A DNA stretch of 49,131 nt, taken from Balneolaceae bacterium (GTDB lineage Bacteria > Bacteroidota > Rhodothermia > Balneolales > Balneolaceae). Below are positions 1 through 3,029 of this stretch, one piece after another. The first letter of the stretch is position 1. Every line of letters begins with the position of its first letter. Made by a program: the position numbers and the translations under genes. The stretch is taken from NCBI GenBank assembly GCA_021767245.1, contig JAASTO010000002.1:1-49131 (forward strand), given 5' to 3'. The notes beneath the pieces are model-generated. The model had not been told where the DNA came from and searched no databases. It saw nothing but the letters and a program-made list of their open reading frames with translations.

Positions 1-797
1 ACTGATCCTACCTCGATGCCCATTTGCTTACAGGTCGATCTTAGTTCCGATTCAAAGACGGAGGCCACGGATCCCACAAAACCCATTTCCTGTGTGATAA
101 TCTTTTCCGGAAAATGCTCTTTCACTTTGGTCAGATAGGCCTCGAATCCATCATGGATGATCTGCTGAATTTGCGGGTAATGTGATTTTGGTCCCATGAC
201 CTTACAGATCTCGGCTGCAAACAGTTTGGCCTCACGGTTTTTTTTGAACATCAGCGTCATCTTCTCAATATCCTCTTCTACATGGTGGTCCAGGTACGAC
301 CTCAGGTCACTATTCAGCGTACCGGCCGCATACAATTTCATGATCCTCTTGCCGATATAGCTTCCGCTTCCCTCATCCCCATCCGGAAATCCAACTGACG
401 GCATCTGCTTCATTACCTTGCCGTTTTCAAAATAAGCCGCACTCGATCCGGTTCCCAAAATACCCACCAGTCCTGATCGATCACCAAAGAGAGCAATACC
501 GGCAGCATCCAGGTCTGTAGCCACATGGATCTCAGCAAATTCAAATACCTCTCTCAGATACTGCTCCACCTCTCGCTTCTTTTCGGGTGAACCGCATCCG
601 GAACCGAAAAATCGTATCTCCTCAACTGATCGCCCTAACAGTTTGGGCTTCAGTTCTATGATAAGCACCTTCAAAAACTCTCCGGATGTAAGGAGATGGG
701 GATTAAGTCCTTCTGTCTGAATGAATTGAGGCGTTCCATCCCCAAGCAGCACCCAGTCTGTTTTCGACGCTCCACTATCTGCAATTAATCGGTTCAT
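1..797 (-). CDS. N-acetylglucosamine kinase-like / BadF-BadG-BcrA-BcrD family ATPase (3' end outside window)
   Basis: Open reading frame on the minus strand from CAT at 795-797, translated by hand: MNRLIADSGASKTDWVLLGDGTPQFIQTEGLNPHLLTSGEF...GILGTGSSAAYFENGKVMKQMPSVGFPDGDEGSGSYIGKR. Matches the ASKHA sugar-kinase phosphate motifs (DSGASKTDW, GTGS). Absent from the ORF track because it runs off the window edge. Confidence 0.85.
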   Translation of the reverse strand, partial: MNRLIADSGASKTDWVLLGDGTPQFIQTEGLNPHLLTSGEFLKVLIIELKPKLLGRSVEEIRFFGSGCGSPEKKREVEQYLREVFEFAEIHVATDLDAAGIALFGDRSGLVGILGTGSSAAYFENGKVMKQMPSVGFPDGDEGSGSYIGKRIMKLYAAGTLNSDLRSYLDHHVEEDIEKMTLMFKKNREAKLFAAEICKVMGPKSHYPQIQQIIHDGFEAYLTKVKEHFPEKIITQEMGFVGSVASVFESELRSTCKQMGIEVGS

Positions 798-854
798 ACT
801 TAATGGTACATAATTTTCACGATCAGGGTTCTTTAAAAAAAGAAAATCTTTTTA

Positions 855-910
855 CAGTGAACAGTTTTCAGTAAGCAGTTATCAGTAAACAGTGGGCAGT
901 GGGCAGTGGA
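855..910. repeat. Short tandem heptad repeat, (CAGTNNN)x8
   Basis: Direct read: CAGTGAA CAGTTTT CAGTAAG CAGTTAT CAGTAAA CAGTGGG CAGTGGG CAGTGGA; exact 7-bp period, intergenic. Confidence 0.9.
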
Positions 911-914
911 AAAT

Positions 915-963
915 CCTAACACCTAACACCTAACACCTTGCAGCTAATTCCTTGCACCTACTC
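915..963. repeat. Second tandem heptad repeat, CCTAACA/CCTTGCA type
   Basis: Direct read: CCTAACA CCTAACA CCTAACA CCTTGCA GCTAATT CCTTGCA CCTACTC; 7-bp period, separated from the first array by 4 nt (AAAT). Confidence 0.85.
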
Positions 964-1005
964 TCTCTCCTCCCTATCATCCAACCGAACCAAATTTACT
1001 TACGC

Positions 1006-1785
1006 ATGAGCCTGACCTACACCAACTATCTCAAGATCGACGAACTGACTGAACTGCAGGAATATAAGTCGGACCCACCCGAGCATGACGAGATGCTGTT
1101 TATTATCATCCATCAAACCTATGAACTGTGGTTTAAACAGATCCTTCACGAATTCGGCAAGCTTCGCAAAGACCTTGAAGCCTGCAACACCTGGGGTGCC
1201 GTCAAAACCATGAGGCGCGTACTGACCATCCTTAAGACCATGGTGTCGCAGATCGATATCCTGGAAACTATGACGCCCCTCGAGTTCAATAGCTTCCGGA
1301 AATTCCTGGGGCAGTCGTCCGGTTTTCAATCACTTCAATTCCGTGAAATGGAGATCGTTTGCGGACTCCGTTTCCCGCTCATGAAAGAAGCACACAAGGA
1401 TCAACCCAAGCATATCGAAGTACTGGAAGAACGAATGGAGGAATCAACCTTATGGGAAAGCTTCTGTGCCTATTTACGCACCCGGGGGCATGATCTCCAC
1501 CCTCAAAGAGTTAATGAAAAAGGACTGATCCACGAACCCAATGAGGAGCATCAGAAGATCCTGGTAAATGCCATGCAAAATGATCCTGAAGCCGCCATGA
1601 TGACCGAGCTGTTTGTGGATTACGATGAGGGCCTTCAGGAGTGGCGCTACCGTCATGTTAAAATGGTGGAACGAACCATTGGCACCAAAAAAGGAACCGG
1701 CGGATCGGATGGAGCTAAATATCTTCACAAAACCCTGAATAATCCCATTTTTCCAGATCTCTGGGCTATCAGATCACAGTTTTAA
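1006..1785 (+). CDS. kynA: Tryptophan 2,3-dioxygenase
   Basis: MSLTYTNYLKIDELTELQEYKSDPPEHDEMLFIIIHQTYELWFKQILHE... and SFRKFLGQSSGFQS...R are typical of the TDO family. The ORF track start (952) lies inside the heptad repeat; ATG at 1006 fits the family N-terminus. Confidence 0.93.
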   Translation: MSLTYTNYLKIDELTELQEYKSDPPEHDEMLFIIIHQTYELWFKQILHEFGKLRKDLEACNTWGAVKTMRRVLTILKTMVSQIDILETMTPLEFNSFRKFLGQSSGFQSLQFREMEIVCGLRFPLMKEAHKDQPKHIEVLEERMEESTLWESFCAYLRTRGHDLHPQRVNEKGLIHEPNEEHQKILVNAMQNDPEAAMMTELFVDYDEGLQEWRYRHVKMVERTIGTKKGTGGSDGAKYLHKTLNNPIFPDLWAIRSQF

Positions 1786-1838
1786 AGTGAACAAAATCGG
1801 TCGTATTACAGTTACTGCAACCAAACCAATTAAATTTC

Positions 1839-3029
1839 TTGTTGATGTCAGATATTAATTCCTTAGCCAAAAAACTCGCTCCCCATTACTCACGATTTAA
1901 TGTAGCCAACCGGCTCCTGTTTACCGGTCACTCTCATCAGGCCTGGCCCGATGTAGCCCGTGAGGGTCAAACCGAATATTTTGACGTTTGTGCCCGCGAT
2001 GTGGACAACAAATGGGGAGCCGCTTTTGAAAAAACCGAGATCCTCCGAAATTACCTTCGTGATTTTTATGATGATCCGGATGGATTTTACTGCCGCGAGG
2101 AGAGTACCCACGTATTGTTCGTGAGCTGGATGAGTAGTCTGGACCTGAAAAATAAGCCTAAGATCATCTCCACCGATGGAGAATTTCACTCCCTGTTCAG
2201 GCAGCTGCACCGGCTCGAGGAAGAAGGTCTTGAATTCATTCAGGTTCCGGTTCAACCCGATGACACCTTTGCAGAACGCATTATCGAGGAAATGGATGAC
2301 CGCACCTCGGCGGTGATGCTCTCCCGCGTGTACTTTGAAACCTCTTTGATCAACACTCACCTGACCGAGATAGCCGCAGCCGCACGAAAGAATGGAATTC
2401 CCGTCCTGATCGATGATTACCATGGTACCAATGTGGTTCCTCTTTCCATTCGCGAAGCAGGACTTGAGGATTGTTTTATCCTGATCGGTGGATACAAGTA
2501 TCTGCAATGGGGCGAGGCCAACTGTTTCCTGCGCTTTCCCAAAGATTGCGACTATCGTCCGGCCATCACCGGATGGTTTGCCTCCTTCAGCACGCTGGAT
2601 AAACCGCGAACCAATGAGCCGGTAGAATATGATCATGACAATCAGCGATTTGCGAGCGGTACCTATGATCCTTCCTCTCAGTTCCGGGCAGCAAAAGTGG
2701 TGGAGTTTTTCCGGGAGATGGGACTCTCCCCCGAGGTACTGCGTGAGCAATATAAGGCACAGGTAAGCCTGCTTCGTGAGGCCTTCAAAAGCAAAAACTT
2801 TGATCCGGCTCTCATTCGGCTCACCCACGAAAACCCATTGGAGCTGAATGGCGGGTTCCTGTCATTGACTTCTCCTAAAGCCCGTGAGATCCGCGCAGCT
2901 CTGATGGAAAATGGAGTGTTCACCGACGCCCGCGGGGAGATCTTAAGATTTGGCCCGGCCCCATATATCACAACCGATCAGATCCAGAAAGCCATGGATA
3001 AGCTGGAAGAAGTTATCAGTTCAAGCTGA
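1839..3029 (+). CDS. Kynureninase-like PLP-dependent enzyme (aminotransferase class V fold)
   Basis: Class V fold with probable PLP lysine in IGGYKYLQWGEANCFLRFP; NRLLFTGHSHQAWPDVA N-terminus; immediately downstream of tryptophan dioxygenase. Confidence 0.7.
   Translation: MLMSDINSLAKKLAPHYSRFNVANRLLFTGHSHQAWPDVAREGQTEYFDVCARDVDNKWGAAFEKTEILRNYLRDFYDDPDGFYCREESTHVLFVSWMSSLDLKNKPKIISTDGEFHSLFRQLHRLEEEGLEFIQVPVQPDDTFAERIIEEMDDRTSAVMLSRVYFETSLINTHLTEIAAAARKNGIPVLIDDYHGTNVVPLSIREAGLEDCFILIGGYKYLQWGEANCFLRFPKDCDYRPAITGWFASFSTLDKPRTNEPVEYDHDNQRFASGTYDPSSQFRAAKVVEFFREMGLSPEVLREQYKAQVSLLREAFKSKNFDPALIRLTHENPLELNGGFLSLTSPKAREIRAALMENGVFTDARGEILRFGPAPYITTDQIQKAMDKLEEVISSS

Follow-up and report, generated by a model that had tools for sequence, protein, structure and literature searches.

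Convergent arrays of degenerate heptads between a kinase-like gene and kynA in a Balneolaceae bacterium, and their counterparts at gene edges in other bacteria and viral contigs

The array pair upstream of kynA

The stretch of DNA analyzed here, hereafter the window, comprises 49,131 nucleotides from the genome of a Balneolaceae bacterium. A kinase-like gene on the minus strand (3..797, starting at 797) and kynA on the plus strand (1006..1785, ATG at 1006), which encodes tryptophan 2,3-dioxygenase (Pfam PF03301), are separated by an intergenic gap of 208 nt (798..1005) from which the two genes diverge. The preliminary description of this locus placed a divergent kinase gene here; the divergent gene is confirmed, but its identity as a kinase rests on a weak match to the BadF/BcrA-type ATPase family (19.6 bits in Pfam, below the cut-off of 31.5). 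Within 1006-3029, a kynureninase-like gene (KYNU_C) directly follows kynA, so that a kynurenine operon is probably under the control of the promoter that carries the arrays.

The gap contains two heptad arrays. Array 1 (855..910, plus strand) consists of eight CAGTNNN heptads, with GAA, TTT, AAG, TAT, AAA, GGG, GGG and GGA in the three variable positions. Its CAGT strand is directed away from the kinase-like gene, its gene edge, from which it lies 57 nt away, as against 98 nt from kynA. Array 2 (915..963) reads on the plus strand as three CCTAACA heptads followed by CCTTGCA, GCTAATT, CCTTGCA and CCTACTC. On the minus strand it is an AGGTNNN array directed away from kynA, its own gene edge, at a distance of 42 nt on the AGGT strand. 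Its final three heptads are degenerate, GCTAATT having lost one core base and CCTACTC retaining only CCTA. The two convergent arrays meet at AAAT (911..914), a junction that is the same in the sister genome G002. Both arrays and the 4-nt break between them, as first described, are read directly from the sequence. A chance origin of array 1 is ruled out, as three CAGT cores in heptad register gave 6 matches in the window against 0.01 expected from dinucleotide shuffles. Also, CCTAACACCTAACA with at most two mismatches gave 3 matches in the window against 0.17 expected.

The arrays are placed upstream of conserved promoter-like boxes. Conservation across 11 genomes predicts a kynA -35 box, CTTGCA (951..956, plus strand), within a CCTTGCA heptad of array 2, and a -10 box, TATCAT (975..980, plus strand), 18 bp downstream of it. 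In all 11 genomes aligned, TATNAT was found 27 to 35 nt upstream of the kynA ATG and the spacing between the two predicted boxes was 18 bp. At the -35 position, the window genome and G002 have CTTGCA as part of a CCTTGCA heptad, and the nine array-free genomes have TTAGCA, with ATAGCA in G007 and TTGGCA in G003. On the other side of the gap, comparison by eye of the kinase upstream regions pointed to TACCAT (803..808, minus strand), just upstream of the kinase start, as a probable -10 box, which is TACTAT in most relatives.

G002 is the nearest sister of the source genome (kynA 98% identical) and the only one of nine other genus members with kynA to carry the array pair in this gap. The flanks of the pair are nearly unchanged between the two genomes. 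In G002, array 1 has the triplets GAA, GAA, TTT, AAG, TAT, AAA, GGG and GGA, that is, one GAACAGT more and one GGGCAGT fewer than in the window, and array 2 has 11 heptads, six of them CCTAACA, against 7 heptads in the window. The gap of G002 measures 237 nt and is longer than that of the window by 28 bases plus one. All changes in unit number lie upstream of the predicted -35 box and, given the constant 18 bp spacing, the repeat number therefore does not set the spacing of the kynA promoter. Six arrays keep their position between the source genome and G002 while differing in length. The five beyond the kynA gap are at the same place in both, with length differences that are mostly multiples of seven and a stray base in some, one of these five running off its contig. 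The expectation that the arrays vary between close relatives was thus borne out by whole-heptad differences, here in a comparison at species level. In the kynA upstream gap of another member of the genus, G009 (L056), we observed a different and weaker period-7 stretch with the words TCATTGG, CCATTCA and TCCGTTC, and (ACCTTAG)n occurs near the kynA gap of G071, which belongs to another family.

Dispersal and periodicity of the arrays

In the whole source genome, a draft of 2.65 Mb in 288 contigs that is 84% complete, four CAGT cores in register gave 24 matches at 6 sites. The reversed control pattern gave 0, and as this pattern matches a real TGACNNN heptad family in some relatives, it is a clean zero only in some genomes, including G000 and G002. 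Among the 97 genomes searched (source genome included; one genome per species), CAGTNNN arrays were present in 41 and the AGGTNNN (= ACCTNNN) family, to which array 2 belongs, in 44. One of the relatives, G032, which is placed in the same family, has a locus (L028) identical to part of Aliifodinibius salipaludis NZ_NSKE01000005.1, which identifies the family as the Balneolaceae. In the source genus, the triplets of the latter are mainly GTT, TTT, GCA and TCA. The 6 sites in the source genome and the 41 genomes with CAGTNNN arrays rule out a one-off low-complexity tract, and the suggestion of a repeat family dispersed genome-wide holds, with arrays at several loci of the source genome and in many relatives. 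With a period of 7, a fixed four-base core, an intergenic location and occurrence at several loci, the window arrays are members of a group of degenerate heptad arrays. A composite of CAGT and ACCT arrays was considered as a recurrent element and rejected, as the pair was confined to the window genome and its sister G002, and other matches to the pattern look unrelated. In one relative, a single tract (L462, G001:C1:297818-297902) shows three abutting heptad families, CAGTGAC, then CTAACGA-type units, then CCTAACA.

The search for six CAGT cores in register extended this range. Among the matches listed, named genomes belonged to Cyanobacteria, Bacteroidota, Acidobacteria, Chloroflexi, Planctomycetes, Calditrichia and others; many of their arrays, among the matches listed, were perfect repeats of one heptamer and a good share were mixed. 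Nearly half of the scored arrays were homogeneous, and the fixed-core form is thus not universal. In a Chitinophagales genome (L128:4460-4620), a long palindrome with GTCATGCTGAGCGATAGCGAAGCATC lies between two convergent CAGT arrays as a separate repeat nested in the gap.

CAGTNNN arrays were also present in viral contigs among the matches listed, and the best of these contigs carry one or two arrays in most intergenic gaps. Proteins on array-rich viral contigs match transposase, DNA transposition protein, head-tail adaptor and neck families, which indicates that these contigs are probably transposable phages. In five of the viral contigs (L306, L298, L284, L277 and L269), the order in the gaps is stop codon, CAGT array, short spacer, inverted array and start codon, and the spacer is often AAAGGCAAAA, itself repeated between gaps.

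Pattern searches favour intact cores by design, so that unbiased support for the fixity of the core comes from a motif-free scan only, which covered 2.0 Mb from four relatives. For every period from 5 to 14, we counted degenerate arrays in which four cores are identical; period 7 was found at 11, 2, 12 and 4 sites in the four relatives. By autocorrelation, it was found at 33, 25, 34 and 16 sites, against 7, 4, 3 and 8 in locally shuffled sequence. In the same autocorrelation scan, periods 5, 10 and 13 were near background, period 11 was raised in one genome and period 8 slightly in two, the signal at period 14 follows that of period 7, and periods divisible by three were also raised, as coding sequence would give. 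Among non-coding periods, the clear enrichment in these 2 Mb is that of period 7. Of the stronger period-7 arrays in the motif-free set, 41 of 46 were intergenic. In the motif-free scan, conserved columns tend to adjoin, an effect that is real but small (contiguity 0.230, against 0.196 when permuted).

The preferred cores differ by species, with CAGT and AGGT in G002, GAACA and AAAT types in G005 and G008, and CCAA in G025. G005 and G008 also have octads, GTGATNNN, in which five bases are fixed and three are free; we observed them there with inverted partners (L402:3300-3425, L394:6936-7117, L384:10896-10999, L398:9240-9366). A further heptad family, GAACATC/GAACAAG/GAATATC, was seen in several relatives (L377:10791-10857, L399:7212-7268, L407:12337-12401, L396:9650-9714), with the GAAC strand mostly outward.

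Polarity at gene edges

The orientation of the arrays was measured on the core-bearing strand as the distances of its 5' and 3' ends to the nearest gene edge, with gene edges taken from a simple ORF caller. For CAGT arrays of Balneolaceae and relatives, the 5' end was the closer one in 34 of 43 cases, with medians of 10 nt for the 5' end and 102 nt for the 3' end. The same held for mixed CAGT arrays (at least three kinds of triplet), in 30 of 32 from named genomes and 110 of 158 from viral contigs, both among the matches listed, and for 26 of 30 AGGT arrays; since arrays that share one phage or genome are not independent, the P values of these comparisons are optimistic. A stricter test, in which edges within the array were ignored and genes had to span 150 codons or more, recovered the polarity of CAGT arrays separately at stop-codon edges and at start-codon edges in all three groups, and for AGGT arrays gave a trend in the same direction that was not significant. 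Neighbouring arrays within 200 bp were convergent in 72 cases and divergent in 3. In the motif-free set, as read from the listing, the outward strand was nearly always the same within one family.

Thus, the arrays of each family mostly have a fixed strand whose 5' end is at a gene edge, whether this is a start or a stop codon, and which points into the gap. The window pair follows this polarity, CAGT running outward from the kinase side and AGGT outward from the kynA side. Two abutting arrays have one period and two consensuses because each belongs to a different gene edge. We also considered a G-rich outward strand as a general cause of the polarity and rejected it, as it showed a trend only (22 of 33, P = 0.08) and CCAA arrays were opposite.

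Origin of the arrays and comparison with known repeats

We propose that the arrays are self-propagating intergenic repeats that grow by core-guided slippage and are limited by the promoters they meet, an explanation to which we give about an even chance. In this reading the two window tracts form a single pair of convergent, degenerate heptad arrays and together occupy the gap between divergent genes, with units made of a fixed four-base core and three largely free bases. The left CAGTNNN array runs outward from the start-codon side of the kinase-like gene and the right AGGTNNN array outward from that of kynA, until they meet at AAAT. The simplest route for the gain and loss of whole heptads would be slippage during replication, the strands realigning on the four-base core. 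A unit with a damaged core would drop out of realignment and changes in the other three bases would be tolerated, so that the core would stay fixed and the rest would drift. Growth would halt where core promoters would be damaged, which at kynA may be the point where a CCTTGCA heptad coincides with the predicted -35 box. The arrays would then be mainly self-propagating filler of intergenic DNA, with at most incidental effects on expression. The slippage, the role of the core and the lack of a dedicated function are inferred. Slippage alone, however, predicts neither that the outward strand is fixed nor that cores recur between unrelated loci and across distant phyla, which suggests copying between loci, insertion, or selection.

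A bolder reading is possible, although we hold it only tentatively: bacteria and phages may share an undescribed class of gene-edge arrays with many cores and one syntax, which would imply a dedicated generating or spreading mechanism and not ordinary slippage. The syntax would consist of a fixed core, three free bases, a period of 7 (sometimes five plus three bases at period 8) and outward orientation. Candidate mechanisms would be templated synthesis, or realignment on four-base homology at gene boundaries.

The arrays could instead bind a protein that recognizes DNA or RNA and controls the adjacent genes, perhaps at the post-transcriptional level, as has been suggested for TAACTGA repeats. 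A fixed core with a drifting spacer does resemble a motif array, the outward strand is conserved, and TAACTGA sets end beside start codons, S1, Csp or Csr-type binders having been proposed for them (MacGregor, 2015; PMC4679880). However, the unrelated cores CAGT, AGGT, GAACA, AAAT and CCAA share one layout in the same bacterial family, so that a single binder is insufficient. Arrays also occur both behind stop codons and ahead of start codons, two settings that a single RNA-level role does not fit. Moreover, the kynA arrays are missing in 8 of the 9 other genus members compared, and these retain the promoter boxes. That several unrelated cores share one layout within the same genomes lowers the likelihood of the protein-binding array envisaged in the preliminary description, which we keep as an unlikely rival.

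Less probable again, in our view, is that the arrays are inverted repeats at the ends of a small mobile element between genes, single arrays being its decayed copies. Such an element would agree with the excess of convergent over divergent pairs and with the inter-arm spacer that is itself repeated in transposable-phage contigs (AAAGGCAAAA and a longer one), but the few Balneolaceae spacers, read by eye, were without common sequence, and the window arms, CAGT and AGGT, form no inverted repeat. Compared with a MITE, which is marked by terminal inverted repeats, target-site duplication and empty sites, the window pair has arms that differ in core, and the array-free relatives are too diverged in the gap to reveal an empty site. 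We consider a role of the arrays as RNA hairpin arms, in termination or in mRNA stabilisation, very improbable. Convergent pairs exist and a few are near-perfect palindromes, for example GTGATATAGTGATATAG...CTATATCACTATATCAC in L384. Nevertheless, the match between arm triplets was 0.474 against 0.417 shuffled in the hairpin register and 0.499 against 0.415 in the opposite register; being no lower in the latter, pairing of the free triplets is weak and not register-specific, and the window pair cannot form a hairpin stem because its arms carry different cores. Finally, the proposal of a phase-variable promoter spacer or upstream element for kynA, with which the whole-unit length change between sister species would agree, is scarcely tenable, as in phase-variable repeats the repeat number alters a frame or a promoter spacing and here it leaves the 18 bp of all 11 genomes unchanged, the length changes lying upstream. 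Such tracts should not be taken for phase-variable promoters by default.

Tandem heptamers in bacterial intergenic DNA are already known. The STRR heptamers of cyanobacteria, which Mazel et al. are said to have described in 1990, are reportedly specific heptamers, tandem and dispersed in intergenic DNA, and the arrays described here resemble them in all three respects: tandem heptamers, dispersal and intergenic location. Array 1 differs from specific, near-perfect tandem heptamers of this kind in that only its GGG unit is repeated consecutively and its units vary at three positions. We know of no fixed-core and free-spacer structure or gene-edge polarity in cyanobacterial STRRs.

The closest system is that of the TAACTGA heptamer direct repeats, which are mostly intergenic and were reported from five Bacteroidetes, Cyanobacteria and Beggiatoaceae (MacGregor, 2015; PMC4679880). 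The earlier remark that no characterized equivalent was known to its author in this lineage therefore needs amending. TAACTGA is the reverse complement of TCAGTTA, which contains the CAGT core, and the period is also 7. These repeats show indels in steps of 7 nt between two Cyanothece strains, and they run forward where a start codon follows and in reverse behind a stop codon (PMC4679880); the polarity found here agrees with these orientations. That study held all seven bases fixed and reported related heptamers as rare in its main genome (PMC4679880), whereas the arrays described here have four fixed bases, belong to several coexisting families and range much more widely, into phages as well. 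Whereas TAACTGA repeats consist of at least two adjacent exact heptamers, positions 855-910 contain no TAACTGA or TCAGTTA doublet, and the lone CAGTTAT is preceded by G. Array 1 resembles them in being intergenic with the 5' end of its CAGT strand towards the kinase start, but at 57 nt and not at a few nt.

The GGGANTN heptamer arrays of Xanthomonas and the GGGGA(C/T)T arrays of Nostoc form G-quadruplexes (PMC4692102). They share with the present arrays heterogeneous heptads with some fixed columns, an intergenic location, positions conserved across related species and variable lengths (PMC4692102), but CAGT and AGGT units are without the G-runs needed for a G-quadruplex. As cited in these two papers (PMC4679880, PMC4692102), Mrazek et al. 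(2007) found period 7 over-represented among long simple sequence repeats and proposed polymerase slippage. The preference for period 7 and the slippage are common to both cases; degenerate arrays and polarity are not among the points for which that work is cited. According to a 2025 survey of short tandem repeats, bacteria are on average not enriched (PMC12699852).

Our literature search, limited to open-licence papers, found no earlier description of gene-edge polarity. As far as it shows, the fixed-core and free-triplet structure with coexisting cores, the wide range including phages and the outward polarity are undescribed. Heptamer repeats have been known for decades in single bacterial groups, without an accepted role. 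That unrelated cores, in distant phyla as well as in phages, share a gene-edge polarity is a concrete regularity that both slippage and binding-site models must explain, and it is testable at once on existing genomes.
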